Virus record (IMG/VR): IMGVR_UViG_3300002131_000092
Coordinates: 1 to 53,515 of that record
From: a virus
Direction: 5' to 3' (one strand)
DNA length: 53,515 nt
The notes under the pieces are model-generated. The model was not told where the DNA came from, searched no databases, and worked only from the letters and a program-made list of their open reading frames with translations. The position numbers and the translations under genes are program-made. Positions 1 to 50,286 of this stretch are shown piece by piece (the first letter of the stretch is position 1; each line of letters starts with the position of its first letter).

Positions 1-84
1 CCTGCTGTTAAAAAAGCAGCTACCAAAGCTAAAGACACTGTTAAGAAACCTGCAACTCGCGGCCGCAAGCCAAAGACGAAGTAA
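1..84 (+). CDS. C-terminal tail of a basic Lys/Ala-rich protein (partial)
   Basis: The frame is open from the left edge and ends with TAA at 82-84. It encodes 27 residues, very rich in Lys, Ala, Pro and Arg, ending GRKPKTK. Such tails are typical of histone H1-like or other DNA-binding proteins. The rest of the gene lies outside the window, so no function is assigned. It converges on and overlaps the 3' end of the UV endonuclease gene on the other strand by 44 bases. Confidence 0.55.
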   Translation, partial: PAVKKAATKAKDTVKKPATRGRKPKTK

Positions 85-1099
85 GTTTCTTAGCCTCTTC
101 GTATAGTGCGAAGCTGGCTAGATTTTTAGCTTTACTTTCACACATGATGTCAAAGTCGTCTCTGAAGCTCAGAGCCCATTTGTTCACTGCTGTATTCCAG
201 TAGAACTCTGAGTGGGCTCTGAGCTTCCCTTTTTTGTAGCCTTGTTCTGTGAGCGCCGCAAGGTCAGGCTTTTGGTCTGATCTGTGCCCCACAAGACAAT
301 CTTCTCTACTAACACTATAATGCATAGCAGGACGAACGCCCCTCCAACTGTCAATAACACGTTTGATCCTGTCGTCATTTGCATTTATATATTCTCCTGT
401 TTTAACCCAATGATGATGTACATCTAGCACCAGAGCGAGATCTTTTTGGAGTTCGAGACTGCTGTCAATTCCCCAGCTGACTTCGTCGTTCTCAATGGTG
501 ATGCAGTTTCTTGCTTCGGGGGTAAGGCGTGGGAGGGCAGCTTTGATACCGGCTGGACCGGCTCTACCGGAGATGTGGACGTTGATCTTAAAGTCCTGAT
601 ATCTTTGACCATACCCCATCCATCTGACCATGTCCGTGTGATATTCAAACTCTTCTATACTCCGACTAACAATATCTGGATTATCACTAGCAAGCACAGT
701 AAACTGGCCAGGGTGCATAGACAAGCGTACATCACGTTCTTTAGCGATTTGGCCCACGGCTGCGAAGTGCTTTTCGCAATAGCTGACCACATCAGGACGT
801 TTCCAGAAATAACACCAATCACGCTGAGTATAGACAGGAAGGCAATCACTGCCGAGTCGAACCATTCGTAATTCATTTGGTAGTTCTCCTACTTTCTCTA
901 CTAGCTTGCGGTAAGCTTCAATATTGCCTACCATTAAGTCCCACAATTTTTGTTCTGCAACTTCTTGCGTTTGTCTATTTAACCAAGCAACTGTAGTAGA
1001 CCCTGTGTTGTATTGTTTACAATCATCTTTGGGTTTAATTCCGTTTACTTGATCGGGACGATCAATCCATTTACATGCGAAGCCGATTCGTTTTTGCAT
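41..1099 (-). CDS. uvsE: UV-damage endonuclease (UVDE/UvsE family)
   Basis: The protein is a TIM-barrel endonuclease that nicks DNA 5' of UV photoproducts and starts light-independent repair. Family motifs occur in order: RIGFACKW at the N terminus, RLSMHPGQF, HISG, ENDE, LVLDVHHHW, MHYS and HSEFYWN, which supply the metal-binding His, Glu and Asp residues. The length of about 350 residues fits the family. The reading frame opens at an ATG at 1132. I prefer the ATG at 1099, because a sigma70 promoter at 1141-1169 would start RNA near 1134 and the family usually begins just before RIGF. The 5' end overlaps the HAD gene. For a phage exposed to sunlight, a repair role is natural (inference). Confidence 0.9.
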   Translation of the reverse strand: MQKRIGFACKWIDRPDQVNGIKPKDDCKQYNTGSTTVAWLNRQTQEVAEQKLWDLMVGNIEAYRKLVEKVGELPNELRMVRLGSDCLPVYTQRDWCYFWKRPDVVSYCEKHFAAVGQIAKERDVRLSMHPGQFTVLASDNPDIVSRSIEEFEYHTDMVRWMGYGQRYQDFKINVHISGRAGPAGIKAALPRLTPEARNCITIENDEVSWGIDSSLELQKDLALVLDVHHHWVKTGEYINANDDRIKRVIDSWRGVRPAMHYSVSREDCLVGHRSDQKPDLAALTEQGYKKGKLRAHSEFYWNTAVNKWALSFRDDFDIMCESKAKNLASFALYEEAKKLTSSLACGRELQVS

Positions 1100-1800
1100 A
1101 ATTTCTTTAATCTTTCCCAGGTGTCTTGCCAATTTATAATATTATAACACATGCCACGTTTGTTGTCAACGATTATTTTGGCTAGAGGATAATCGTTTCC
1201 TTGCGAGTGCATAGCATCACCGAAGAAATGTATTTCTTGTTGTGTATCAAAGTCCGCTAGTATTTGACTTTTATCTGCACCCGCTGGAGCAATGTCAATG
1301 CCTGTTTCACCACCAACAGTTGCTTGTAGGGTTGGAAATAGTAGATTAAAGTTGTCGGCGATTATGTTGCGTTCGTCGGATAATACATCATGAACAACGT
1401 ATTCTGCTCGTTGTTCGCTATCAGCATTACGACCAACAACGCTGAAGTTTACCATGCCCGGACGATGTTCAAAATGTAGTCCTGTACGCAACATGAATGT
1501 ACTTGACGTTAGTTGTTCTGATAGCCAGTCGTGTGGACTTTCGGGTAGTACCCATTTGTTTGTGCGAATATTTAATGCACCTTCCCAAACATCGTTGCCG
1601 TTGCAGTTATATACACGTTTACATTTTGAATAGATGTATTCGCCTATCTGCTCTACTGTTTTAGATCTATCACTTCCTGTGACAAGGTAAACAATATTTG
1701 TTTCACAGAATTTACTGAACCAGACAGCAAACTCTTTGTCTATTCGCCCTCGACTAGGTGTTAGTGTTCCGTCAACATCAAATATAAAAATCATCGCCAA
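1045..1800 (-). CDS. HAD-superfamily phosphatase, phosphomannomutase-like (type IIB cap)
   Basis: The N terminus carries the HAD nucleophile motif FDVDGTLT, followed by VTGSDR (motif II) and GDAMHSQGND (motif IV). The middle contains RPGMVNFSVVGRNA and GGETGIDIAPAGADKS, which resemble the substrate-binding cap of eukaryotic-type phosphomannomutase. The likely role is a sugar-phosphate mutase or phosphatase in surface-sugar metabolism. It lies in one operon with a glycosyltransferase and KdsA. It could supply the KdsC (Kdo-8-P phosphatase) step, but its sequence looks closer to PMM than to KdsC. The exact substrate cannot be read from sequence. Confidence 0.8.
   Translation of the reverse strand: MAMIFIFDVDGTLTPSRGRIDKEFAVWFSKFCETNIVYLVTGSDRSKTVEQIGEYIYSKCKRVYNCNGNDVWEGALNIRTNKWVLPESPHDWLSEQLTSSTFMLRTGLHFEHRPGMVNFSVVGRNADSEQRAEYVVHDVLSDERNIIADNFNLLFPTLQATVGGETGIDIAPAGADKSQILADFDTQQEIHFFGDAMHSQGNDYPLAKIIVDNKRGMCYNIINWQDTWERLKKLCKNESASHVNGLIVPIK
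1141..1169 (-). promoter_or_regulatory. sigma70 promoter inside the HAD gene, reading into uvsE
   Basis: On the minus strand there is TTGACA, a 17-base spacer and TATAAT, a full consensus match. It lies within the 3' part of the HAD gene. The predicted start near 1134 favours translation of uvsE from 1099. Confidence 0.75.
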
Positions 1801-11812: not shown

Positions 11813-12192
11813 AGTTTTTTGGTGTATCCTGCTAGATGCAACATCATGCTGTACTGTTCGTATGCTTTTTGCGCTGCTGCATTTGTGTGTCTAATATATG
11901 CTTCTTCTCGCTCTTTTTCCATCAGCATATCAAACATACCAACTTGATACTGCTCGTGACGCTGACGATTAAAGAATCGATCTTCCATTTCTATCAAAGA
12001 ACGGAATCTTCCTTCCGGAATTTCAACAGTAAGAACTGCTTCAGTTTCAAACTGAACTTCTTGGTCTCTTATAATAGAAGCATTATCTGGCTCGGTAAAG
12101 TAGAAGGGCCGATGATACCTTGCCCTTCTCTTTTGGTCATTGAGAATGCGTACTTCGTAATTCTCACAGAACTTGTTGTCTTTTTCTTTCAC
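11809..12192 (-). CDS. charged protein, unknown function
   Basis: The 127-residue protein is rich in Arg and Glu (NDQKRRARYHRPFYFTEPDN; EDRFFNRQRHEQYQVGMFDM). It has no membrane segment or known motif. It overlaps kdsB and the Bax-inhibitor-like gene by 4 bases each, so it is part of their operon. Confidence 0.65.
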   Translation of the reverse strand: MKEKDNKFCENYEVRILNDQKRRARYHRPFYFTEPDNASIIRDQEVQFETEAVLTVEIPEGRFRSLIEMEDRFFNRQRHEQYQVGMFDMLMEKEREEAYIRHTNAAAQKAYEQYSMMLHLAGYTKKL

Positions 12193-12860
12193 TTACGATT
12201 TCCAAATAGTTGTAGCAAGTGAATGAACAAGTTGATAAAGTCTAGGTACAGTGTTAGAGCACCCATTACTTCTTCTCGACCTGTGTCGCCGCCAACACTT
12301 ACAATTTCGCGGATCTTTTGTGTGTCGTATGCAGTTAATCCCAAGAACACAATAATAGCAATAGCACTGATAACCATCTGCATTACTGTACTGCCAATAA
12401 AGATGTTAACTACGCTTGCAATAATAATTGCAATCAATCCTACAAACATCAGTTGACCCATTGACGTTAGGTCTTTCTTAGTAAAATACCCATACAAGCT
12501 CATAGTGCCAAACAACACTCCTGCACCCATAAAGGCTGTAAAGATACTGCCCATAGTATAGACTGCAAAGATTGTAGCAAAGCTCAATCCCATTAGAGCA
12601 GCAAACACCTGCAGGAATATCTGCAATCCGCTTTTGCTAAAACTACTTGCAGCAAAACTCATACCTAGGATAGCAACAAGTGGAGCAAAAATAACAATCC
12701 ATTTCATCGCTCCTGTAAAAAAGAACTGTAGGAGTTCAGGACTAGTTCCTACAAAATAACTAACAATCATTGATGTAATGACTGCCAACGACATGTGTCC
12801 ATACACACGATTCATTGCACTGATAATTTGATCAGTTGATTTATAAGTTGCTGCGTACAT
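12189..12860 (-). CDS. Bax inhibitor-1/YccA (UPF0005) family membrane protein
   Basis: The 223-residue protein has seven hydrophobic segments and the family hallmark SLYGYFTKKDLTSMG and the C-terminal FLGLTAYDTQKIRE. Family members act as calcium leak channels, or inhibit FtsH-type membrane proteolysis (YccA) in bacteria. In a phage it could protect phage or host membrane proteins from FtsH, or modulate host death; this is speculation. It is the first gene after thyX in a dense operon. Confidence 0.88.
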   Translation of the reverse strand: MYAATYKSTDQIISAMNRVYGHMSLAVITSMIVSYFVGTSPELLQFFFTGAMKWIVIFAPLVAILGMSFAASSFSKSGLQIFLQVFAALMGLSFATIFAVYTMGSIFTAFMGAGVLFGTMSLYGYFTKKDLTSMGQLMFVGLIAIIIASVVNIFIGSTVMQMVISAIAIIVFLGLTAYDTQKIREIVSVGGDTGREEVMGALTLYLDFINLFIHLLQLFGNRK

Positions 12861-14405: not shown

Positions 14406-15386
14406 ATGATAGCCAATTTTCAAGAAATACCATTTCAAAAAATAGTTAGATTTGGACAGCGAACAATGTTGTCCAAACCGTTGTTCTCTATTAGCTGGAT
14501 ACTAGGACGATTCTGCAACTATAATTGTAGTTATTGCTGGCCGTATGCTAGATCAGATAAAGTTGATCATGAAAAATTAGAAGTATACCAACACACCATA
14601 GACGAAATTAAACGCCAAGCCAAACTAAATGGGTTCAATCAGTTCCATTGGAGCTTTAGTGGCGGTGAACCTACTGCATATAAACAGCTAAATGATCTAG
14701 TTAAATATTTGCAAGACGATGTAGAGAGTTCTTACCAAAGTGTACACATGACCACTAACCTAAGTCCAGGTAGCAAGTGGTGGAAGACTTGGTGCGCTAA
14801 CACAGATATGCTGCAACGTCGAAGTATAACGGCAAGCTATCATTCAGAGTTTGCTAAAGAACAAGAGTTTGGCGATAAGTGCCTGCAATTAATGTATGAG
14901 AGAGTTCATGTCACAATCAATCAAGTTATGGTTCCGGAAATGTTTGAAGAGCTTTACGAGCGTATGGGACGATTTGCCGCCCGAGGTATTAATATTACTC
15001 TCAAACCCCAGTCCGACCCGACTGCTTCCAGGATTGTTGATGGATATACAGAAGACCAAATCCACAGAATGCAAACAGGATTCCCCCAACGATCAAATGG
15101 AGAAGAAGTCTATCAAGTAGCATTATACGATGCGGACGACAACGAATATCTGTTCGACCAAGCGGAAAGATTTAATGCATTTGGATTTAATAATTTCCAA
15201 GATTGGTCTTGCAATAGTGGCTATCAAAGTGTTATAATAAGAAGCAACGAAGTAAAGAGATCGTACAGTTGTCACGACCAACCATTAGGAACTTTAGAAA
15301 GTTTCGAATTGTTTAAGAAACCCCAACGCTGCATTACACCTAGTTGTGTTAGTTCAGCCGATAGCAAGATACCAAAATGCAAATAG
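14406..15386 (+). CDS. radical SAM protein with C-terminal Cys cluster (island rSAM 1)
   Basis: CNYNCSYC at residues 38-45 is the CxxxCxxC motif that binds the SAM-cleaving 4Fe-4S cluster. FSGGEPT follows. The C-terminal part holds extra cysteines (WSCNSGYQS, YSCHD, RCITPSC, PKCK), which suggest a SPASM-like auxiliary cluster. Length is 326 residues. It heads a coupled nine-gene operon that includes three more rSAM proteins of the same general type. The chemistry and substrate are unknown. Peptide or small-molecule modification is possible by analogy with SPASM enzymes. Confidence 0.85.
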   Translation: MIANFQEIPFQKIVRFGQRTMLSKPLFSISWILGRFCNYNCSYCWPYARSDKVDHEKLEVYQHTIDEIKRQAKLNGFNQFHWSFSGGEPTAYKQLNDLVKYLQDDVESSYQSVHMTTNLSPGSKWWKTWCANTDMLQRRSITASYHSEFAKEQEFGDKCLQLMYERVHVTINQVMVPEMFEELYERMGRFAARGINITLKPQSDPTASRIVDGYTEDQIHRMQTGFPQRSNGEEVYQVALYDADDNEYLFDQAERFNAFGFNNFQDWSCNSGYQSVIIRSNEVKRSYSCHDQPLGTLESFELFKKPQRCITPSCVSSADSKIPKCK

Positions 15387-15967
15387 ATACAGAACACTTA
15401 CACTTCTGGATGCAGGCAATCCGGCAAAGTGAAGATCCAATACGCACAATGGATGCATTTTGGAGTGGTCAACTTAAAAGCAAAGAGTGGCTAATTACCA
15501 ACCTAAGAAAAAATGTTAATACTTTTATTAGTATAGACATCCACGGAGGTTGGGTTGGTGTATTAGCTAGTATGTTGTTCCAGAGTTCAATTCCCATAAA
15601 AAATATCCGCAGTGTAGACATCGACCCAACATGCGAATCTATTGCTACTATGATGAACAAGCAAGAAGAAATAGTTGGTAGATTTCGTGCAATAACCGCA
15701 GACATGTGCGAGATACGCAGTGATGCTAATGTTGTAATTAACACTAGTTGCGAACACATTGCACAAGATCAATTTGACTTGTGGAAAAGCGGAATGCCTG
15801 CAGACAGCTTACTAGTATTACAAAGTAATAATTATGATATTCCGGAGCATATCCGCACAGCAGCAACACTAGAAGAATTTAAATCACAATGCGGCATCAA
15901 TGTTGTATGGGCAGGCGAATTAGAATTGCCACTGTACACTCGTTGGATGATTATAGGTAAGCAATAA
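15377..15967 (+). CDS. class I SAM-dependent methyltransferase-like protein
   Basis: The 196-residue protein has a Rossmann-type core: FISIDIHGGWVGVLASMLF (motif I position), IRSVDIDPTCESIATMMN (acidic residue binding the SAM ribose) and VVINTSCEHIAQDQF. Several marine phages carry similar small proteins (memory). It overlaps the preceding rSAM gene by 10 bases, and its stop overlaps the next start (TAATG). Methylation of an intermediate in the same pathway is plausible. The glycine-rich loop is degenerate, so activity is uncertain. Confidence 0.65.
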   Translation: MQIDTEHLHFWMQAIRQSEDPIRTMDAFWSGQLKSKEWLITNLRKNVNTFISIDIHGGWVGVLASMLFQSSIPIKNIRSVDIDPTCESIATMMNKQEEIVGRFRAITADMCEIRSDANVVINTSCEHIAQDQFDLWKSGMPADSLLVLQSNNYDIPEHIRTAATLEEFKSQCGINVVWAGELELPLYTRWMIIGKQ

Positions 15968-17037
15968 TGTTTTTCTCGATTAGTAAGCACATAAACAACG
16001 ACTTCCCTAACCATATTAAATGGGGAGAGTTTTGTGTTGACTTTGATAACGGATGGACGATTAATGAAAATTATATTAGCAAAGGTTATCCGGGAAAAAG
16101 CTGTGCGATTTCATACAGTGATGACAGTGTACACGTTGACTCTGGTGAACGCCAAACCTTTCCTATGTTTATTGATGCTGAAAAATTTGTTGTGTCGAAT
16201 TTACTATCAGGAGATTTTTTCGTAGGTGAAGTGTCGGTCACTGCAAACTCCATTATACGAATAGATAAGCCATCTTCAAAATTTAAAAAGTTGAATTTAA
16301 CAGATAGCGAAATTATTGATCAGATAGACACTACTATTGAAAACACTATTTTAAATTTTGAAACAGATAAGCCCGTTAAGTTGTTCTTAACCGGCGGAGT
16401 TGATACGCTGCTGTTAGCAGCCTATGTTGTTAAAAATAAGATACCGTATGAATTAGTAAATTGTGAACATTTTGATTTAGATTATTTTATGTGTCATAAT
16501 CGATCTAAATTAAAACAGTTTTGGGCATATAAAAGCCTACAGCATTGGAGAACTCCTGAAGTTCTTTTATCAGGTGCCAATGGCGACGAAATGCTGATGC
16601 GGAATCCCTATGATGCTTGCATCGTGTTAAACTACTTTAATGAAGATATAGTCGAAGTATGTAAACAGCAACCGTATTATCACAGTGGATATTTTCTAAA
16701 AGAAAAGTTCGCTAGCACATTGGAAGCAGCAAAGCAAATAAAATTCCACAGTGAAGCAGAATTAAAAGAACATGTTGTTATTAGAAACAGCAACGACTTC
16801 CAACACTGGCATTTAGGAAATACTATTACCCTGTCTCCTTACGATAATTTAAATTTAATAAATCTTGTTTTAAATTTAAGCTATCCTACACTGAGAACCC
16901 AGATACTTGATGCAGGAATACATAAATTATTAATTGAACGCAATGCTCCTCAGTTATTAAGATTGTTATCTAACGATAAGAACACAAATAATTTTAAAAA
17001 GCTAGCTGGAATCTACGAAGGACTAGAGTCTTTATGA
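15967..17037 (+). CDS. asparagine-synthetase-like ATP-dependent ligase domain, no glutaminase
   Basis: LFLTGGVDTLLLAAYV (residues ~140-155) is a PP-loop, a variant of SGGVDS used to adenylate a carboxylate. VLLSGANGDEMLMRNPY matches the second ATP-site motif of AsnB-type C-terminal domains. The first 110 residues lack the Cys2 glutaminase nucleophile but are beta-rich, like the degenerate N-terminal domain of lasso-peptide cyclases and beta-lactam synthetases. It may therefore form an amide or lactam with ammonia or an internal amine. It is embedded among radical SAM genes, with a 4-base overlap to the next. Confidence 0.7.
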   Translation: MFFSISKHINNDFPNHIKWGEFCVDFDNGWTINENYISKGYPGKSCAISYSDDSVHVDSGERQTFPMFIDAEKFVVSNLLSGDFFVGEVSVTANSIIRIDKPSSKFKKLNLTDSEIIDQIDTTIENTILNFETDKPVKLFLTGGVDTLLLAAYVVKNKIPYELVNCEHFDLDYFMCHNRSKLKQFWAYKSLQHWRTPEVLLSGANGDEMLMRNPYDACIVLNYFNEDIVEVCKQQPYYHSGYFLKEKFASTLEAAKQIKFHSEAELKEHVVIRNSNDFQHWHLGNTITLSPYDNLNLINLVLNLSYPTLRTQILDAGIHKLLIERNAPQLLRLLSNDKNTNNFKKLAGIYEGLESL

Positions 17038-18050
17038 ACCCCGTAGCTATAACAAATCCAGACTTTGACAATTATCTCAGCATACGTTATGAGTTTACTA
17101 ATGTATGTAATTATAAGTGCAATTACTGCTGGCCTGATTCTCATGCAGGAACAACAACATGGCCAGACTTTGATTTAATCTGTAAAAACTTCGATCACTT
17201 AATTACGATTTACAAAACGCAGTTTAACAAAAAAATAATCAGCATCGAACTTACTGGTGGCGAACCTACACTGTGGCCTAAGCTAGGTGAATTTGTAAAG
17301 TTTTTAAAAGAACGACACGATATTCGAGTTTCAGTTGACACAAATGGGTCGAGGACCATGCGATGGTGGCATGAGTATTCTAAATATTTTAACGATATTG
17401 CAATTAGTGCCCACCACGAATTCATTAATACGTCACATATAAAAGAGTTGTTGGACTTAATTTACAGCAATGAAACAACAATTGGTGGAGTTAGTGTTTG
17501 CATGGATCCATTAGCGTGGGACAAATGCACTCAGTTAGTGGATGAGTTAGTTGCACATCCAACACCGTGGCTGGTTAAAACAACAACACTGGTCACATCT
17601 ACTGGTGCTGCTGTAGGTATTATACAAGATTACACCACTGAACAACTTTCTTATCTAGAAAATAAAATAAAAAAACTTCCTCCAAAAGAATACCTAGACA
17701 AGATGAAATCTCTTAACAACATACAAGAAGATAAAACACAGGCAACGATTACATGGGATAATGGTACTAACACACCATACACATCTTTCGCTATTATCAG
17801 TAAGAAGCTGAATAACTTTTATGGTTGGGAATGTAATCTAGGTGTTGACAGAGTCAACGTACAACGTGACGGCACACTACAAGGTGCATGTGGCGAACTT
17901 AAAATATATGGCAACAACTATTTTAAAATACATGATGTAGATTTTGTTGAAAAGTTCACTGCTAGCGTAATTAAACCTATTAGGTGTTCAATGATAACGT
18001 GTAGCTGCAAATCAGAAGTTCGAATCACGAAACGTAAATTAAATGTATAA
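17034..18050 (+). CDS. radical SAM protein with C-terminal Cys cluster (island rSAM 2)
   Basis: CNYKCNYCWP near residue 26 binds the radical SAM cluster; LTGGEPT, VDTNGS and AISAHHEF follow the family pattern. The C-terminal half carries WECNLGVDRVNV, GACGE and CSMITCSC, likely ligands of an auxiliary cluster. At 338 residues it resembles rSAM 1 and rSAM 5 and is probably a paralogue. The substrate is unknown. It overlaps its neighbours by 4 and 8 bases. Confidence 0.85.
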   Translation: MNPVAITNPDFDNYLSIRYEFTNVCNYKCNYCWPDSHAGTTTWPDFDLICKNFDHLITIYKTQFNKKIISIELTGGEPTLWPKLGEFVKFLKERHDIRVSVDTNGSRTMRWWHEYSKYFNDIAISAHHEFINTSHIKELLDLIYSNETTIGGVSVCMDPLAWDKCTQLVDELVAHPTPWLVKTTTLVTSTGAAVGIIQDYTTEQLSYLENKIKKLPPKEYLDKMKSLNNIQEDKTQATITWDNGTNTPYTSFAIISKKLNNFYGWECNLGVDRVNVQRDGTLQGACGELKIYGNNYFKIHDVDFVEKFTASVIKPIRCSMITCSCKSEVRITKRKLNV

Positions 18051-19029
18051 TATAGAAAATATCAAAACAGTACATCTTGAGATTACCAGCAAATGTCAGG
18101 CTAGTTGTCCTATGTGTGTGCGTAATTTACATGGCGGAATAGAAAACCCGTGGTTAGAATTAGATGAAATTACACTGAAGCAATTTAAGCATTGGTTTCC
18201 TGTTGAGTTTATTCAACAGTTAGGTAGACTATACATGTGTGGCAATACCGGTGATCCTATAGTAGCTAAAGACACCTTGAATATTTTTAGATACCTACGT
18301 GAAGTAAATCCTAGTATAGAGTTAAGCATGAATACCAACGGCAGCGCCCGAGATTCTAAGTGGTGGTATACTCTTGCAAAATTAAAGGTGCGTGTTGTAT
18401 TTGGAATTGACGGACTAGAAGATACCCACAGCTTATATCGTATAGGTACAGACTTTGATAAAATTATCGATAATGCTTATACCTTTATTCAAGCTGGAGG
18501 AATAGCCGAATGGCATATGTTAGTATTTGAACATAATGCACATCAGGTTAACGAGTGTGATAAGCTCGCACAAGAGTTAGGTTTTTCTTTGTTCCAAGCA
18601 AAGCATACATCTCGTTTTAAAGATGGTGAAAAGACAGTACTGAACAAAGACGGAACCACTAGCCATATACTTCACCCGAGCATACACAGCAAGGCGTTAT
18701 CTGAAAAATTAATTAAGTATAATCCACTGGAAAATACACAGATAAACTGCAAGGCTATCAAAGAACAAAGCATCTATGTAAATGCGCAAGGGGAAGTCAC
18801 TGCCTGTTGTTGGTTAGACTTTAGGGCGGTGCCTCCGTTTAACCCCGGCTATGTTGATTTTAAGGACAAGGGATTTAGTAATCCAACATTAAGAACCACT
18901 AGCCTAGAACAAATTTTTAGCAGTGCATATTTTAAAAAGATAGAAGATCAATGGGCTTCTAGCCCACTACTACAATGCAGTAAGCAATGCGGTAAGATAG
19001 ACAAATTCAAGGAGCAATTTAATGTCTAA
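18043..19029 (+). CDS. radical SAM protein, SPASM-like (island rSAM 3)
   Basis: CQASCPMCVRN near residue 18 is the CxxxCxxC motif. MCGNTGDP takes the place of the usual GGEP, as in a subgroup of SPASM proteins. The C terminus has INCKAI, VTACCWLDF and CSKQCGK, consistent with an auxiliary cluster. Length is 328 residues. It differs from rSAM 1 and 2 and may act on another substrate in the same pathway. Overlaps of 8 bases on each side indicate coupled translation. Confidence 0.85.
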   Translation: MYNIENIKTVHLEITSKCQASCPMCVRNLHGGIENPWLELDEITLKQFKHWFPVEFIQQLGRLYMCGNTGDPIVAKDTLNIFRYLREVNPSIELSMNTNGSARDSKWWYTLAKLKVRVVFGIDGLEDTHSLYRIGTDFDKIIDNAYTFIQAGGIAEWHMLVFEHNAHQVNECDKLAQELGFSLFQAKHTSRFKDGEKTVLNKDGTTSHILHPSIHSKALSEKLIKYNPLENTQINCKAIKEQSIYVNAQGEVTACCWLDFRAVPPFNPGYVDFKDKGFSNPTLRTTSLEQIFSSAYFKKIEDQWASSPLLQCSKQCGKIDKFKEQFNV

Positions 19030-20431
19030 ACCATTCTGGAAAGATCACAACAACCAAACATTAAAAGTTTGGCAGGAAAGAATTGAGGAAGTATCCAGTA
19101 GCAACACCTTTTGCGCTTTGCCGTGGATACATGTAGCCACTAGGCCCAACGGCGATGCAAGGCTTTGCTGTGGTAGCAATGCTAGTCAAGCTACTAAGGG
19201 AATAATGGATGCAGGCCTTGTTAAAAAAGAAAATGGACAACCTGCAAACTTTGGAACAGACTCACTATTAAGTGCGTTTAACAATGAGTATATGAAAGAT
19301 GTTAGGCGTACTATGCTAGACGGCAAAATTCCATTAAGCTGTAGCAAATGTTTCGAAGAAGAATCTAATGGCGTAATGAGTAAACGTGTGTGGGAATCGT
19401 ATTTTTGGGATCGTGAAGGATTAGACTTAACTGAATTAGTTAATGAAACAGACCCAGACGGTACTGTTCCTCCTGTTATACGATACCTAGATCTACGATT
19501 AGGGCACACCTGTAATTTAAAATGTGTAATGTGTACACCACACGACAGCAGTCGTTGGACACAAGATCACGATCAACTTATTAAAAAGACTCGTAGCCCT
19601 ATTATATTACAACAGATTCAATGGGACAAGACAAAGTTTAATAATACTTGGTACGAACGACCAGAGCTATGGGAAGAGATTTTTGAACAAATTCCTAATA
19701 TACGACAACTATACTTCGCTGGCGGCGAGCCGTTAATGATCAAAGAACACAAAAAGTTCTTAGAAGAAATCATACGTAGGGGACACGCCAAAAATATCAC
19801 AGTGCGATATAATTCCAATGGAGTATTAGTTGGTGATGACATAATTGAGGTATGGAGTCATTTTAAAGAAGTTCGTTTTGCATTTAGCATCGATGCAATT
19901 GGTGATCGAAATCATTATATCCGCTATCCAGTTAAGTGGCAAGAGATCGAATCAGCGCTTGACAAGTTAGATAACACTCCTGACAATATCAAAGTTGGTA
20001 TAGCATGTGCTGTACAAATTTTTAACATCAAGCATATCATTGATTTTGCTAAATGGAAAATTAGCAAGAACTTTAAAAAGATTAATAAGTTTAAAGTTGA
20101 AAAATTCGAAGCCGGTGGTGGTCTACTTAACATGCACTTATTGTATATTCCTACCTATCTAAGTCCTAGGATTCTACCATTGGAGGACAAGCAAGAGCTT
20201 GAACGCCAGTTTGCAGATTTTAAACAGTGGTTATGGGATAATTATACACAAGACGATATCTTCTGGAAGGAAAATCCTAATGGATGGAACAGATGGGCTA
20301 GTATTTTAAAATTCGTACTAGCGGAAGATCATTCACATTTAGTCCCAGCATTTAAAGAATATGCTGAAAACATGGATAGTATTAGAGGAACAGACTATAA
20401 AGTTATATTCCCGGAGTTGGCAAATTTATGA
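19022..20431 (+). CDS. radical SAM protein with N-terminal twitch-type domain (island rSAM 4)
   Basis: The N-terminal 140 residues contain CALPWIHVATRPNGDARLCC and CSKCFEEE, a Cys-rich twitch-like domain. The radical SAM core follows with CNLKCVMC near residue 163 and FAGGEPLM. The total of 469 residues fits twitch-domain radical SAM proteins known from phages and bacteria. The C-terminal part is helical and Trp-rich. It is the largest enzyme of the operon. Its role is unknown. Confidence 0.85.
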   Translation: MSKPFWKDHNNQTLKVWQERIEEVSSSNTFCALPWIHVATRPNGDARLCCGSNASQATKGIMDAGLVKKENGQPANFGTDSLLSAFNNEYMKDVRRTMLDGKIPLSCSKCFEEESNGVMSKRVWESYFWDREGLDLTELVNETDPDGTVPPVIRYLDLRLGHTCNLKCVMCTPHDSSRWTQDHDQLIKKTRSPIILQQIQWDKTKFNNTWYERPELWEEIFEQIPNIRQLYFAGGEPLMIKEHKKFLEEIIRRGHAKNITVRYNSNGVLVGDDIIEVWSHFKEVRFAFSIDAIGDRNHYIRYPVKWQEIESALDKLDNTPDNIKVGIACAVQIFNIKHIIDFAKWKISKNFKKINKFKVEKFEAGGGLLNMHLLYIPTYLSPRILPLEDKQELERQFADFKQWLWDNYTQDDIFWKENPNGWNRWASILKFVLAEDHSHLVPAFKEYAENMDSIRGTDYKVIFPELANL

Positions 20432-21084
20432 CACATGAAGAATTAGAACGTGCAGCACTATGGAACAGTCTTGTACATTTAGGAAACTTTGTAAAAACCA
20501 AATGGCATTTTAGTCCTGTAGGTGTAGAGCAACAACTAGAACAGTTTAAGGACAATTGGTGCCCATATAATGTAAAAAAAGATTCGCATAACAATCGCTG
20601 GGGCTTACCAGTGACCAGTCACACTGGTGATGTTATGGATAATTATCATCTCAATAGTTTTGGATATATGCAAAAATATCACGATGTTGAAATGAAAGAA
20701 GAAAACTTTAACACACCAACAGACGTGTATAACAGTATTCCTGAAATTAAAAATCTCGTTGATGTGTTTGCTCCGGATATAGGTCGTGTACATTTGCTTA
20801 GAGTGGATCAAGGTGGATTCTTTCCTCCTCACCGAGATTTTCACGAAGTAAGTCCTGAGTACTTTAGGATGCTAGCAGTGTTTGGGCGTTGCAGTCCGGA
20901 GAACTATGTACAGATGTTCGATGGCAAACCAATCTACCCAGAAGCAGGATGGTTGTACTTTACTAACACTCAGTTAGATCACAGTGTGTTTAGTTTTAGC
21001 AATGGACTATATGCATTGATTTTAACAGTTAAATTAAATGAACGCACTCGTGCTCTAATTGTGAATAATCTAATCGCAGAATGA
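20428..21084 (+). CDS. 2-oxoglutarate/Fe(II) oxygenase-like, Asp/Asn hydroxylase type
   Basis: PPHRDFHEVS near residue 134 gives an HxD metal-binding pair, and TQLDHSVFSF near residue 186 supplies the distal His. The jelly-roll strand pattern (GWLYFTNTQ, LYALILTVKL) fits the aspartyl/asparaginyl beta-hydroxylase group. Length is 218 residues. It lies between two radical SAM genes with 4-base overlaps, so it probably hydroxylates a product or substrate of the same pathway. Confidence 0.75.
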   Translation: MTHEELERAALWNSLVHLGNFVKTKWHFSPVGVEQQLEQFKDNWCPYNVKKDSHNNRWGLPVTSHTGDVMDNYHLNSFGYMQKYHDVEMKEENFNTPTDVYNSIPEIKNLVDVFAPDIGRVHLLRVDQGGFFPPHRDFHEVSPEYFRMLAVFGRCSPENYVQMFDGKPIYPEAGWLYFTNTQLDHSVFSFSNGLYALILTVKLNERTRALIVNNLIAE

Positions 21085-21977
21085 AACTAACCTACCAGAA
21101 TTCTAACAAACATAATTGGTTTCTTATTACTTGGAATCTAGGAAATAAATGCAATTATCGTTGCTCGTACTGTCCTAGTATGTTTAACGACGGAAGTACC
21201 GGTTGGCCTAGTTGGAATGATGTTGAGAAATTTGTTAAAAAGATAAATGAACAGTTGCCTTACAAGGATATCTGCTTTAGAATAAGCGGCGGTGAGCCTA
21301 CATATTGGAAGCACTTTTTAGAGTTTGCTAATCTTGTTAAATCGTATGGTAATAGTTTTACATTCTTAACAAACGGTAGTAGAGATGCAGCATATTTTTC
21401 CACTATAGGAAAGTTATCCGAGGGAATAATGATAAGCTATCATCCCGAATACTCTACTCCGCAGCACTTTGTTGAAATAGCCAATGCTGCTAGCTGTCCA
21501 GTAGCAGTAAACTTAATGATGGTACCTGAGCAATTTGACGAACTAGTTGAAGTAGCTAAATTCTTATTTGAAAATAGCAGCGTTGCAGTATGGCCTAAGA
21601 TGGTATTAGACAAAATCAATATGACAAATCAGGTTGCTGATTACACCGAAGACCAAAAAGAATTTATTAAAAACTGGCCGTACTTTCGTCCACTTAATGA
21701 CGAGAAATTGCACAGAGGAATATTGTTGTTAGACGACGAACCAATAACTGCCAATGAGCTAGTGCTACGTGGATTAAACAAGCATAAAGGTTGGAAATGT
21801 TGGGCAGGTATAGATATGATCAATATTGATTATGTAGGATCTGTGTTTAGTGCAGATTGCGGGCAAGGTCCGTTGGGCACTATCCAAGACTTTACACTTC
21901 CTAAAACTGCACTCACTTGTGGTAAAGATTTATGCAGTTGTCTAAGTGACATTTATCTTAGAAAAGAAAATGAATAA
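21081..21977 (+). CDS. radical SAM protein with C-terminal Cys cluster (island rSAM 5)
   Basis: CNYRCSYCPS near residue 24, RISGGEPT and FLTNGS mark the radical SAM core. KCWAGIDMINIDYVG, SADCGQG and CGKDLCSC provide extra cysteines at the C terminus. At 298 residues it closely resembles rSAM 1 and 2, which suggests duplication inside the operon. An 8-base overlap couples it to the last gene. Confidence 0.85.
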   Translation: MKLTYQNSNKHNWFLITWNLGNKCNYRCSYCPSMFNDGSTGWPSWNDVEKFVKKINEQLPYKDICFRISGGEPTYWKHFLEFANLVKSYGNSFTFLTNGSRDAAYFSTIGKLSEGIMISYHPEYSTPQHFVEIANAASCPVAVNLMMVPEQFDELVEVAKFLFENSSVAVWPKMVLDKINMTNQVADYTEDQKEFIKNWPYFRPLNDEKLHRGILLLDDEPITANELVLRGLNKHKGWKCWAGIDMINIDYVGSVFSADCGQGPLGTIQDFTLPKTALTCGKDLCSCLSDIYLRKENE

Positions 21978-22839
21978 TATTACACTTACGTTGACCAACG
22001 GAGTCGACGATTACAATTTAATGTTTGATTTAAACAATACTAGCATTGCTAACAAATGGTCATTGGAAATAGGTAAGAGTTATCCTTTATTCGAGGATTG
22101 GCGATTTACAGGTTGGCCTGATTCGCCATGGGATGCTGATAGATATATTCAAGAAATTAATAATTGTATAGACACAGTTAATAGATATCAACCAAATACT
22201 ATACCTGTTGCAAGTCTAACTATTGATTTAAATTATCTACATAAGTTTTTCGAAACACTTAGAGGCGGAGTATTAACACCGTCAGAGTGGTACACTTCTG
22301 CGCCTGCTGAAGTACAAGACGCAGTGTCTAAATTCAATGTTTATATTCATAACTACGAAAAGCTATTAAACAGCAATCATCTTTCGCCAACAATCACTTG
22401 TACATTTAGTTGCGATCGATTTGAATTAAATGACGCTGACTTCCAGTATTTTACATATGATTGGAAGTTTGGCACTATCTATATTAACTATTGTGAAGTA
22501 GGTAAGCATTTACTTGAGTTGTTTATTGACAACGACGACATTGTCGGAGAACACAATATACGTCCTGCAAAATACTACAGTGCAGATTTTAAACTTAAAT
22601 TTTTTACAGACAGACCAAGGAACGAATTTGAAGAATTCAACCAACGTGTGCAGTCATGGGTAAACGATAACTCTGAGTTTTTTAAAAATTTAGGCATCGA
22701 AAATTTAGCATTGGGTTTTATTCCAGTAGCAACACTGAACCATCAGTTAAGCGGTCTTGATAACTTATCTCAACTTGAAATTGTAAACAAGTTAAAGAAA
22801 TTCAATAAAGTTAAGAGTGTAATTGCTATCAACGGTTAA
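21970..22839 (+). CDS. last gene of the radical SAM operon, unknown function
   Basis: I choose the ATG at 21970, which overlaps the stop of rSAM 5. The protein of 289 residues is beta-rich and acidic (SLEIGKSYPLFEDWRFTGWP near the start; DWKFGTIYINYCEVGKHLLE in the middle). No domain is recognised. Because it is coupled to the radical SAM genes it may be a partner or carrier protein, but this is only context. Its 3' end overlaps the convergent propeller gene by 48 bases. Confidence 0.65.
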   Translation: MNNITLTLTNGVDDYNLMFDLNNTSIANKWSLEIGKSYPLFEDWRFTGWPDSPWDADRYIQEINNCIDTVNRYQPNTIPVASLTIDLNYLHKFFETLRGGVLTPSEWYTSAPAEVQDAVSKFNVYIHNYEKLLNSNHLSPTITCTFSCDRFELNDADFQYFTYDWKFGTIYINYCEVGKHLLELFIDNDDIVGEHNIRPAKYYSADFKLKFFTDRPRNEFEEFNQRVQSWVNDNSEFFKNLGIENLALGFIPVATLNHQLSGLDNLSQLEIVNKLKKFNKVKSVIAING

Positions 22840-30679: not shown

Positions 30680-32623
30680 ATGAAGTCTGCTAAGAAGAAA
30701 ATTGTTATATATGTCCCTGACTCTACTTCCGGAATTTACCTTCCGTTGTTATGGGCAAGCGCCAAGAGCTATTATGAGATAAAAGGCCAGCATCCATCAA
30801 AATATGAATGGATCCATCCGCGTATAAATTACGAATTTAATTCAGATAAACTTAAAGCATATCTACTAACTGTCAAGCCTGATGTGTTTGGTATCAGCAT
30901 GTACATATGGAATGACATACAATGTTTAGAAATGGGTAAATGGGTTAAAGAAACATTTCCTAATTGTTTAGTTGTTAGTGGTGGTCCGCAACAATATTTT
31001 AAACACGAAAAAGATTGGTTTCAGCAGTACCCGTTTATCGATGCAAGTCTTGATGGTGGCGAGTACGGCGAACTTACTATTGCTGACATACTAGATAATT
31101 TAACTGAAGATAATAAAGTTGATTGGAACTTAGTAAGAGAAGTAGTATATCCTAGCAAGGATAGGTCTATGATACTTAAAAGTAAAAAGTCAAGTCCTAA
31201 GAGTAGTTTCTTCTGGGACTATAGTGCATACGACATGCAAAAAGATGTTATATTAGAGTGTGCTGCTGAAATCAGAAATCTCAACGGTGGCGGAAAAATT
31301 TCTATCAATACATCCGTTAACGGAAAGTTAGAAACAACTCGTGGATGTCCATATGCATGTGCATTTTGTGATTGGGGCGGTGGCATTGCATCGAAGGTTA
31401 TTAAAAAGTCAGTAGATAATGTAAAACTAGATATTGATATTTTAGAACAAGCAGTGTGTGCATATGTTTTCTTATGCGATGCAAATTTTGGAATAATGCG
31501 TGAACGAGATATTGAGATTATGAAATATCTAGCCAATAAGAAAAAAAATAATTCCTCTTTCTTTCATATATATTTTGGTGGATTTGCTAAGTCAGACAAA
31601 CATACTGAAGTTATAAAAGAAATTTTAGACATTGATGCACGGCATAACTTAACATGGGATTTAAGTTATAAGGCTAGCATACAAAGTATTCATAAAGATA
31701 TTTTAGATAACATTAAACGCAGTGATATTTCTTTTGAAAAACACATATATTTGGCAAAACATCTTAAAGACAACTATAACTTTTCATCATATGCTGAATG
31801 CATTAGCGGCCTGCCAGGTATCACTCCTGATAAATGGTACGAAGAAATGAATGTGTATGCATCACACAATATGGATATCTGTTTGTATAATTGGCACATG
31901 CTTCCAGAAACTCCTAGCTATGATAGTGCATTTAGAGAAAAGATGGGTATAAAGACTGTTAAGAAATATAACAACATGCAAACTAACAACTCTACTTTAC
32001 GCAAAAGCGAAGTTGTAGTTGAGTCTTTCAGTTATACTAAAGACGATTACAAGGAAATGTGGATGGCTTATAGCATCCAACGGGCATTTTGGGCAACTGG
32101 TCTTTTAAGAAAAACGATTAACAAAGTTTTAAAACAATCAGATATAGGATATGGAGATTTTATCAAATTATTCTATAGAGGGTTTGTAAGAGGTAGCTGT
32201 GGCCCAGTGTTTAAAGAACATGTGCAAAAGGTTGATACCCAATTTGCTAGCTACTTCGATCCTAATAGTGATGTTAGTAATTTATCAATATCATTCCCCA
32301 CAGCAAGTGTTCCAGTACAAAGTTCTTTTATGATGTTCTTCTTTTATAATTTTGAAGAATGCAGAGATGTTTTAGTAAAATGGCTAATGTCTAACTTTCC
32401 ATACCTTGATAAAAAGGCAATTAACAAAGAACTTGATACTTTTATTTCTGTAAGAAACAGGTATACTACTAAGTTTAGTTTAACTAGAGCTATCAGCTAC
32501 AACAACAGTGTTATTGATCAATTTAAAAATGACGCAGAAGGTGATTTAGTAGATTTTATAATTACCCAAATGGAAACCTATACTAATACTGACTTCTTAA
32601 CAGCTAGGTCCATAGGCATATGA
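30680..32623 (+). CDS. B12-binding-domain radical SAM protein
   Basis: At 647 residues this is the largest island protein. The first 130 residues form a Rossmann-like B12-binding-type domain (KPDVFGISMYIWND; LVVSGGPQQYF; DGGEYGELT). The classic DxHxxG motif is absent, as in many class B proteins. CPYACAFCDWGG near residue 220 binds the radical SAM cluster. The middle (ISGLPGITPDKWYEEM) follows the Elp3-like core. The C-terminal 200 residues are helical. Such enzymes methylate unactivated carbons or rearrange rings. It overlaps the TauD-like gene by 4 bases. Confidence 0.88.
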   Translation: MKSAKKKIVIYVPDSTSGIYLPLLWASAKSYYEIKGQHPSKYEWIHPRINYEFNSDKLKAYLLTVKPDVFGISMYIWNDIQCLEMGKWVKETFPNCLVVSGGPQQYFKHEKDWFQQYPFIDASLDGGEYGELTIADILDNLTEDNKVDWNLVREVVYPSKDRSMILKSKKSSPKSSFFWDYSAYDMQKDVILECAAEIRNLNGGGKISINTSVNGKLETTRGCPYACAFCDWGGGIASKVIKKSVDNVKLDIDILEQAVCAYVFLCDANFGIMRERDIEIMKYLANKKKNNSSFFHIYFGGFAKSDKHTEVIKEILDIDARHNLTWDLSYKASIQSIHKDILDNIKRSDISFEKHIYLAKHLKDNYNFSSYAECISGLPGITPDKWYEEMNVYASHNMDICLYNWHMLPETPSYDSAFREKMGIKTVKKYNNMQTNNSTLRKSEVVVESFSYTKDDYKEMWMAYSIQRAFWATGLLRKTINKVLKQSDIGYGDFIKLFYRGFVRGSCGPVFKEHVQKVDTQFASYFDPNSDVSNLSISFPTASVPVQSSFMMFFFYNFEECRDVLVKWLMSNFPYLDKKAINKELDTFISVRNRYTTKFSLTRAISYNNSVIDQFKNDAEGDLVDFIITQMETYTNTDFLTARSIGI

Positions 32624-41012: not shown

Positions 41013-41186
41013 TCAATAAACTTCTTTAATAATACTATATTCGTTGTCGGGCCATTTGGTCTTAAACTCCTCGGTTTTAACATACTCACTATAGTCTTTG
41101 GCATTAAAAAACATGCGATGAAACTCTGTTTTCATAGACCCTTTTTTGGTTATTGTCAAATAAACCGATTTAGCTTTGCCTGCCAT
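41013..41186 (-). CDS. 57-aa phage protein, unknown function
   Basis: Start ATG at 41186, stop TGA at 41013-41015. The protein starts AGKAKSVYLTITKKGSMKTE and ends WPDNEYSIIKEVY. It has an AAAGG ribosome site and its own sigma70 promoter (41215-41243). It is followed by the UUCG terminator. No family is recognised. Confidence 0.65.
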   Translation of the reverse strand: MAGKAKSVYLTITKKGSMKTEFHRMFFNAKDYSEYVKTEEFKTKWPDNEYSIIKEVY

Positions 41187-41249: not shown

Positions 41250-41468
41250 TTATAGTCTGTAGGTCACACGACCTTTGGTAAGGTCATATGGACTAACTTC
41301 TATTTTTACTCGATCGCCCATTATAATCTTAATTTTGTGTTTTTTAAGTTTTCCGCTAGTATAGCAGATTATGATGGCTGGGTTATTATCAATTTTTACT
41401 CGGAACATACTTCCGGGTAAAACTTCTTCTACACTACCTGTTAATTCAATTAGTTGATCTTTTGCCAT
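41250..41468 (-). CDS. infA: translation initiation factor IF-1
   Basis: The 72-residue protein has exactly the length of bacterial IF-1. It follows the family: MAKDQLIELTGSVEEVLPG at the start, MFRVKIDNN, SGKLKKHKIKIIMGDRVKIE and SPYDLTKGRVTYR at the end. IF-1 is an OB-fold protein that occupies the ribosomal A site during initiation. A phage copy could favour phage mRNA initiation, particularly with the large tRNA set nearby. It overlaps nothing and lies 3 bases after an oxygenase gene. Confidence 0.92.
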   Translation of the reverse strand: MAKDQLIELTGSVEEVLPGSMFRVKIDNNPAIIICYTSGKLKKHKIKIIMGDRVKIEVSPYDLTKGRVTYRL

Positions 41469-41471
41469 ATA

Positions 41472-42050
41472 TTATTGGTATTCAATATCTGCTGCTAGAA
41501 TAAATCGGTATTTGCTACTTTGTACTATTCCTGGACGATGCCAAGTTTGTCCCGGATATATTATCCAGTGTCCGTCATTAGGGCGTACGAAGAACTTGTC
41601 ATCATTGTTTACGCCAGTTGGCGCTATTTCAGTGCCACAGTAATCACGGTCTTTTACATCATCTGGGATGTTAAGATACCAAATTCCACTTAACATGCCT
41701 TTAGTATTTGGATCTTGTGGATGCCAGTGATGATGCCAAAGTTTTTCGCGGTCTTCGGCACCCTGGAGATTTGTCATAAAACTCCACGCCATCATGTTAG
41801 ATACCTTGACTTCACGGCCTAAATACATAAACACTGAGAACAGGAAGCTCATACGGTACTTTAACCATATAGCTTCCTGTCGAGCAAATATATTTTCTTT
41901 TGTTTGAAACTTGGGACTGTTGGTAAAGTAATTACCGTCTGAGATGATATTCTTAACTATGCCACAGGCTTCTAAGTCATCTTGTTTTGTAATCAACGAA
42001 CTGAAGTTATATTTCTTAACGACAGTATTTTCATCTACTACAGGAATCAT
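41472..42050 (-). CDS. 2-oxoglutarate/Fe(II) oxygenase-like (PF13759-type)
   Basis: HHHWHPQDPNTKGMLSGIWY near residue 103, NDGHWIIYPGQTWHRPGIVQ near 158 and RFILAADI at the end match the putative 2OG oxygenase group found in marine phages. His residues at both sites can bind iron. Length is 192 residues. It is just upstream of infA and just downstream of tRNA-Gly(TCC). Confidence 0.78.
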   Translation of the reverse strand: MIPVVDENTVVKKYNFSSLITKQDDLEACGIVKNIISDGNYFTNSPKFQTKENIFARQEAIWLKYRMSFLFSVFMYLGREVKVSNMMAWSFMTNLQGAEDREKLWHHHWHPQDPNTKGMLSGIWYLNIPDDVKDRDYCGTEIAPTGVNNDDKFFVRPNDGHWIIYPGQTWHRPGIVQSSKYRFILAADIEYQ

Positions 42051-42071: not shown

Positions 42072-42147
42072 TGGAGCGGGCGAAGGGGTTCGAACCCTCG
42101 ACATCTTGCTTGGAAGGCAAGTGCTCTACCAACTGAGCTACACCCGC
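42072..42147 (-). tRNA. tRNA-Gly(TCC)
   Basis: Full cloverleaf with 7-base-pair acceptor (GCGGGTG with CGCCCGC), T73 and encoded CCA. The anticodon loop CTTCCAA reads GGA. Canonical TTCGAAC T-loop. Confidence 0.95.
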
Positions 42148-42155
42148 ATAATTCA

Positions 42156-42737
42156 TTAAACTAGACCCTCTACCTGCAGAGTTGCTACTGCTTCATCAGT
42201 TAGAGGAATCTCTGTTTTGATGTTAATCTCAAGAATTTCATCATTGAGTTTTTGCTTTTGCTTCTTGAGACTTAATACTTCTGCCTTTGCTTGAACAATC
42301 TGTTCTTTAGCAAGAACACTGGTGCTGACAGTATCGCTGTATCCGTAGATGCTACGTCGGCTGGCTTCACCCTTGTCATTCTTGATCTTATCAAGTTTAC
42401 CGTTGATAACTGCCAATGCAGTCATTTCTGTAGCACTAGCTAGTTCTTCTAGCTGACTAATGCGCTTGTCGATGAATGCAGCTTTAGCTAGCCCTGTATT
42501 AATCCCACTGGCAGCATTCGCCGTACCAATTAGAGCGCGGATGTTATACAGAGTCATAGTTAACTTTTGACGACGAGTGTCACTTTCTACCAAAGCAGCG
42601 TTAGCTTTATCTAGAACTTCTTCAACATTTTGAAACTCGTTAATCTCAACATTGAGTTCAACTTTGATATTCTTAATTGCATCTTGGATGCTGTTTTGTA
42701 ATACATTTGCTTTGCGTAGTGTAATATTCATATTCAT
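42156..42737 (-). CDS. coiled-coil phage protein, unknown function
   Basis: The 193-residue protein is almost entirely helical with long heptad-like stretches (AKEQIVQAKAEVLSLKKQKQ; INEFQNVEEVLDKANAALVE). It has no catalytic motif. It could be a scaffold or structural factor. A promoter at 42998-43026 with a 250-base leader or ORF-containing transcript precedes it. Confidence 0.7.
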   Translation of the reverse strand: MNMNITLRKANVLQNSIQDAIKNIKVELNVEINEFQNVEEVLDKANAALVESDTRRQKLTMTLYNIRALIGTANAASGINTGLAKAAFIDKRISQLEELASATEMTALAVINGKLDKIKNDKGEASRRSIYGYSDTVSTSVLAKEQIVQAKAEVLSLKKQKQKLNDEILEINIKTEIPLTDEAVATLQVEGLV

Positions 42738-46927: not shown

Positions 46928-47002
46928 TGGTGGTAAAGGTGAGATTCGAACTCACACCGGGCACCGTATGAAGGTGTTGCACAACCATTATGCTACTTTA
47001 CC
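46928..47002 (-). tRNA. tRNA-Met(CAT), first copy
   Basis: Cloverleaf with GGTAAAG/CTTTACC, A73, CCA and anticodon loop TTCATAC. It could be elongator Met, or Ile decoding AUA after lysidine modification. Confidence 0.85.
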
Positions 47003-49748: not shown

Positions 49749-49824
49749 TGGATGCGGGACTTGGATTTGAACCAAGGATGGCAAAGGCTTATGAGACCTC
49801 GCTGTTGACCGGACACTTCCCGCA
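49749..49824 (-). tRNA. tRNA with CAT anticodon, second copy (Met, initiator or Ile2)
   Basis: Acceptor TGCGGGA/TCCCGCA, T73, CCA, small D-arm TGT...ACA and loop CTCATAA. The three G-C pairs of initiator tRNA are absent. Elongator Met or lysidine-type Ile(CAT) cannot be separated by eye. Confidence 0.85.
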
Positions 49825-50200: not shown

Positions 50201-50286
50201 TGGTGGAGTATCCTGGGATCGAACCAGGCGTGCCATTACGACGGCGGATTTACAGTCCACTGCATCACCATTGATGCTTCTACTCC
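50201..50286 (-). tRNA. tRNA-Tyr(GTA)
   Basis: Type II cloverleaf with GGAGTAG/ATACTCC (last pair mismatched), A73, CCA, anticodon loop CTGTAAA and a long variable arm. Confidence 0.93.

Follow-up and report, generated by a model that had tools for sequence, protein, structure and literature searches.

A complete translation initiation factor IF-1 encoded near a tRNA array on a viral contig, and its probable role in host initiation

Genes of translation initiation have been described from very large phages: IF1 and IF3 are listed with the genes that huge phages are believed to use in redirecting the translation of their hosts, with preferential translation of phage mRNAs put forward as a proposal (Al-Shayeb et al. 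2020, PMC7162821), and IF-1A ('translation initiation factor 1A') is one of the 39 core genes, present in single copy, of the Jug phages (PMC12363816). In one sample of a viral-fraction metatranscriptome from Lake Baikal, translation initiation factor 1 and ClpP lead the 'protein metabolism' transcripts (PMC9611531); the phage analysed here possesses genes for both IF-1 and ClpP. Phage IF1 has already been reported (PMC7162821, PMC12363816), and the IF-1 of the window, which is the whole 53,515-bp IMG/VR record analysed, is a real and conserved further case. The features of the locus are collected in Table 1.

Table 1. Positions of the IF-1 gene, its neighbours and the tRNA genes in the window
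Feature	Position	Strand	Remarks
infA-like gene, translation initiation factor IF-1	41250..41468	-	72 aa; TIGR00008, PF01176, AlphaFold model
2OG-Fe(II) oxygenase-like gene	41472..42050	-	upstream of IF-1; PF13759 6.7e-05 (below cut-off), phrog_81 6e-06
57-aa gene	41013..41186	-	downstream of IF-1; conserved in 34/80 loci
193-aa conserved neighbour	42156..42737	-	served as query to fetch the clade
Array of 25 tRNA genes, 19 amino acids	42072..49907	-	ARAGORN; 23 also by Rfam
Initiator-type tRNA(CAU)	49749..49824	-	ARAGORN; pairing read by eye; absent from the Rfam gathering list
Elongator-type tRNA(CAU)	46928..47002	-	G1-C72; ARAGORN

The IF-1 ORF is complete, with 72 codons, an ATG start and a TAA stop, and it is matched by the NCBIfam infA equivalog TIGR00008 at 98.2 bits (2e-28; residues 3-72 of 72, model positions 1-69 of 69; cut-off 61.15 bits) and by Pfam PF01176 at 70.1 bits (1.2e-19; model positions 1-64 of 64; cut-off 30.2 bits), each model being covered as a whole. 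It is also matched by phrog_30201 (3e-26), which has no function attached in PHROGs; among Pfam families the RsgA OB-fold came next but stayed below its cut-off (25.2 against 27), and the phmmer search of the PDB returned IF-1 chains only. The AlphaFold model, for which 24 aligned sequences with bacterial IF-1s among them served as input, has a pLDDT of 84.8 and a pTM of 0.67 and exhibits a five-stranded OB fold (predicted strands at residues 7-17, 21-26, 32-37, 53-58 and 65-71) with a short helix (residues 40-43) between strands 3 and 4. In Foldseek, bacterial IF-1 structures take the 14 top places for this model (TM 0.87-0.91), the T. thermophilus IF1-30S complex being among the best (TM 0.91), and the list continues after the bacterial IF-1s with archaeal and eukaryotic IF1A. 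A cold-shock or other OB-fold identity, which the earlier note had named as the outcome that would overturn its reading of a phage-encoded 72-residue IF-1, is ruled out by the family models and the structure matches, and the ORF encodes a genuine, complete IF-1.

For the most part, the genes of the window stand in the same order as those at 218-277 kb of a viral contig of 281,658 bp (G006), whose IF-1 is 82% identical to that of the window and has the same neighbours, and from this collinearity the IF-1 gene is taken to reside in a very large phage. Terminase is present in G006 and in two further large relatives, of 269,730 and 191,095 bp, and a 353,123-bp viral contig also encodes IF-1. As judged from these comparisons, the source is a tailed phage with a very large genome, of about 280 kb or more; the collinear contig, as well as the relatives of 269,730 and 353,123 bp, exceeds the 200 kb of the huge-phage set proposed to redirect translation (PMC7162821). 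The remark in the earlier note that translation factors are uncommon outside very large genomes fits this picture, the window itself being a piece of just such a genome and no exception.

The oxygenase-like gene ends with a stop codon 3 nt ahead of the IF-1 start, and no Shine-Dalgarno was found in the inspected sequence upstream of that start; because of these two features, the translation of IF-1 may be coupled to that of the upstream gene. Of 80 related loci, 58 contain this upstream gene, in most cases close to IF-1. The Shine-Dalgarno core motif is present in about 38% of the phage genes, with pairing energies that exceed shuffled controls in strength, and a loss of Shine-Dalgarno use as the reason for the IF-1 gene was rejected, as sites are present in the phage. 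Other genes were also observed in the window, such as a UV-damage endonuclease UvdE at 41-1132 (-) (PF03851, 5e-37), with a 68% identical counterpart in G006; a Bax inhibitor-1 family membrane protein at 12189-12860 (-) (PF01027, 7e-54), whose G006 homologue is placed differently (3.9-4.6 kb); and, at 14406-22000 and 30680-32623 (+), what has the appearance of a gene cluster for biosynthesis or modification, parts of which recur in G006, with a series of radical SAM-like genes, a class III aminotransferase, an AMP-binding enzyme, a short-chain dehydrogenase-like gene and many 2OG-Fe(II) oxygenase-like genes.

When viral contigs were scanned, at least 230 proved to have stretches encoding IF-1 relatives, the best 80 of 230 being 74-100% identical, and a second scan, made from the alignment, gave 382 matches, some of them possibly of bacterial type. 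The nearest bacterial IF-1 sequences reach 57-58% identity at best, and the phage IF-1s form one clade (support 99; 100/96) on a long stem in both of two trees, which differed in the bacteria sampled. On these sequence comparisons, the IF-1 lineage is phage-only, old and long resident in phages, and a recent bacterial donor was not identifiable from the two trees and the best bacterial identity. A recent capture from one bacterial group was considered and rejected: the first tree placed the phage sequences with Alphaproteobacteria (95), but the nearest rows changed under wider sampling and long branches met (Lak), and 72 columns are few for placing a sister group, so that the two trees assign no firm sister group or donor to the clade. 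Some 'phage' records with IF-1 are bacterial contigs: those named Acinetobacter phage MD-2021a (CAKLQH020000005.1, CAKLQF020000005.1) look like bacterial chromosome, with leuBCD, truA and infA, the check having covered CAKLQH020000005.1. For the window such an origin, either as contaminating bacterial DNA or as a host gene of recent date in a misassembled contig, is refuted, since the flanks are collinear together with IF-1 with the 281-kb phage contig, the relatives stand on at least 230 viral contigs and the closest bacterial IF-1 is only about 58% identical; its chances are negligible.

Purifying selection on the clade is strong, with a median dN/dS of 0.035 over 186 within-clade pairs of moderate divergence, which indicates that selection preserves the function of the protein. 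Among 45 loci with the 193-aa neighbour and at least 7 kb downstream, IF-1 was present in 31 and missing from 14, and on those 14 related contigs (42-163 kb each, all of them fragments) it was found nowhere. IF-1 would hence be a common but variable member of this phage group, not an obligatory one, and appears dispensable in some relatives, all known as fragments. As for other components of translation, no IF3 companion was detected in the 8 large relative records; of these records, 4 have ribosomal protein S21 and 2 have peptide deformylase.

In the IF1 of C. difficile, G530 is contacted by K39 and M42, A1492 and A1493 are contacted by R41 and R46, and S12 is faced by H35, Y60, R64 and R66 (PMC10913371), while Arg69 near the C-terminus of E. 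coli IF1 is essential for 30S binding (PMC4611024). The C. difficile residues K39, R41, R46, Y60, R64, R66 and R70 align with K40, K42, K47, Y61, K65, R67 and R71 of the phage IF-1, in which K40, Y61, R67 and R71 are kept, Lys occupies the positions of R41, R46 and R64, and Tyr occupies that of H35; read from this alignment, the residues that contact 16S rRNA and S12 are present with conservative changes. A signature common to the clade was also observed: every one of the 49 distinct clade sequences carries an additional residue in the loop that precedes strand 3, Lys at the Arg41 position, which touches the flipped-out A1492/A1493 (phage K42; Arg in 74 of 75 bacteria, Lys in 1 of 75), Tyr for His35 (Y36) and Gly for Asn19 (G19), and 48 of the 49 end in a C-terminal YRL without the usual basic tail. 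The contact residues thus look like those of a working IF-1 whose decoding-site contact may be tuned, and the activity of the phage IF-1 could differ from that of bacterial IF-1 because of the Arg41 to Lys change, the extra loop residue and the loss of a C-terminal basic residue.

These changes also invite the explanation that the protein is a specialised or dominant-negative IF-1, binding the A site and, through its altered loop, biasing initiation to phage mRNAs or blocking host initiation; the clade-wide decoding-site signature (R41 to K, H35 to Y, inserted residue, N19 to G), the long stem branch of the clade and the proposal that phage factors redirect host translation (Al-Shayeb et al., PMC7162821) would agree with it. 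It is nevertheless an unlikely explanation, as most substitutions at 30S-contacting positions are conservative, the purifying selection is of an ordinary, strong kind and, with Shine-Dalgarno sites in use, the phage presents no unusual start signal to read. The main role of the phage IF-1 might also be placed outside initiation, in RNA chaperoning or transcription antitermination. Both activities have been reported for bacterial IF1, and the phage IF-1 is a small basic OB-fold protein, but the conserved surface includes the contacts with S12, helix 44 and the 530 loop, unneeded for RNA chaperoning alone, and such a role is very improbable.

The tRNA array, to which the earlier note had drawn attention, begins 0.6 kb from IF-1 with a tRNA-Gly (42072-42147), the first of the 25, and of 53 related loci at least 8 kb long, 42 have tRNAs near IF-1. 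No tRNA-Tyr was called in the window by ARAGORN; a weak extra tRNA at 50204-50286 (-), with 33.4 bits in Rfam and missed by ARAGORN, may be either the absent tRNA-Tyr or the remnant of a decayed tRNA. A new observation is the presence of an initiator-type tRNA in this array near IF-1, a combination of the two genes that recurs in four large relatives. As read by eye, this tRNA has a U1-A72 pair, giving the weak 1-72 end looked for in an initiator, a purine11-pyrimidine24 pair (G11-C24), a CUCAUAA loop and a T-loop as in tRNA-fMet. The 30S head grips G29-C41 and G30-C40 of the initiator tRNA. Both pairs are present here, but U31-G39 replaces G31-C39, so that the three G-C pairs 29-41, 30-40 and 31-39 are not complete and the gene is called initiator-type and not a canonical initiator tRNA. 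Nearly all of its orthologues have C1xA72, which is a mark of initiator tRNAs (PMC11497404).

IF-1 and the initiator-type tRNA occur together in 4 of 4 large relatives read whole, 38 kb apart in one of them (G015). At position 58841 of G015 (the viral contig of L077), a tRNA with a CUA anticodon, called 'Pyl' by ARAGORN, was also observed; TAG recoding, considered on account of this tRNA, was rejected, as reading through TAG adds no coding length. A search for the U31-G39 anticodon stem with the pattern GTCTCATAAGC...GCAACCA matched 0 of 120 Pseudomonadota genomes; its canonical counterpart matched 42 of 60. The U31-G39 pair is also present in Pantoea phage AAS21, Stenotrophomonas phage Moby and Synechococcus phage S-CRM01, none of them among the IF-1 hits, and is therefore neither tied to IF-1 nor a marker of the clade. 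The initiator-type tRNA is retained in all 14 related fragments without IF-1, and for related loci of more than 12 kb, the number with this tRNA and without IF-1 is 12. That the phage IF-1 and the U31-G39 tRNA form a matched set, serving a phage-specific route of initiation in infected cells, is therefore doubtful, being weakened by the occurrence of the pair in other phages and by these 12 loci. The anticodon nuclease VapC targets tRNA-fMet (PMC10264068), and escape from nucleases of this kind would be a simpler account of U31-G39.

With a probability of about 0.7, the reading preferred here is that a very large tailed phage makes a working IF-1 and that this protein, during infection, loads the 30S subunits of the host. 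The phage IF-1 would bind the A site of the host 30S subunit beside S12, helix 44 and the 530 loop, as its bacterial counterpart does, and would help host IF2 and IF3 to assemble initiation complexes; initiation could thus stay fast at a time when many phage mRNAs are made and the phage provides tRNAs of its own, an initiator tRNA among them, to the benefit of the phage. The earlier note went further in suggesting that the phage steers host ribosomes at initiation. Such steering is possible and indirectly supported by the initiator-type tRNA in the array and by S21 in some relatives, although the array occurs without IF-1 in some related fragments; a preference for phage mRNAs would be a plausible but conjectural extension. 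A large phage-only IF-1 lineage, with a clear decoding-site signature and often accompanied by an initiator-type tRNA, joins the list of translation factors of very large phages, and phage control of initiation becomes testable with two small, easily made parts, the IF-1 and the initiator-type tRNA.

Compared by description, the huge phages of Al-Shayeb et al. resemble the window clade in having IF1 in genomes of more than 200 kb, tRNA arrays and, in some relatives, S21, and differ from it in including IF3, which the 8 large records of the window clade lack. The Jug phages likewise keep an IF-1-type gene across a huge-phage clade; they are gut Bacteroides phages with IF-1A as a core gene, whereas the IF-1 of the window clade is missing from some relatives. 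Full-length IF-1s are also encoded by Sinorhizobium phage Phosso (PV764938.1, annotated IF-1) and the Prevotella Lak phages, with genomes of 469-552 kb, and these are 48-49% identical to the window IF-1 and do not have the one-residue insertion. The bacterial infA products of E. coli, C. difficile and T. thermophilus share whole-length homology, fold and the 30S-contact surface with the phage IF-1, whereas identity to bacterial IF-1 reaches 57-58% at best and the insertion, K42, Y36, G19 and the C-terminal YRL belong to the phage clade.
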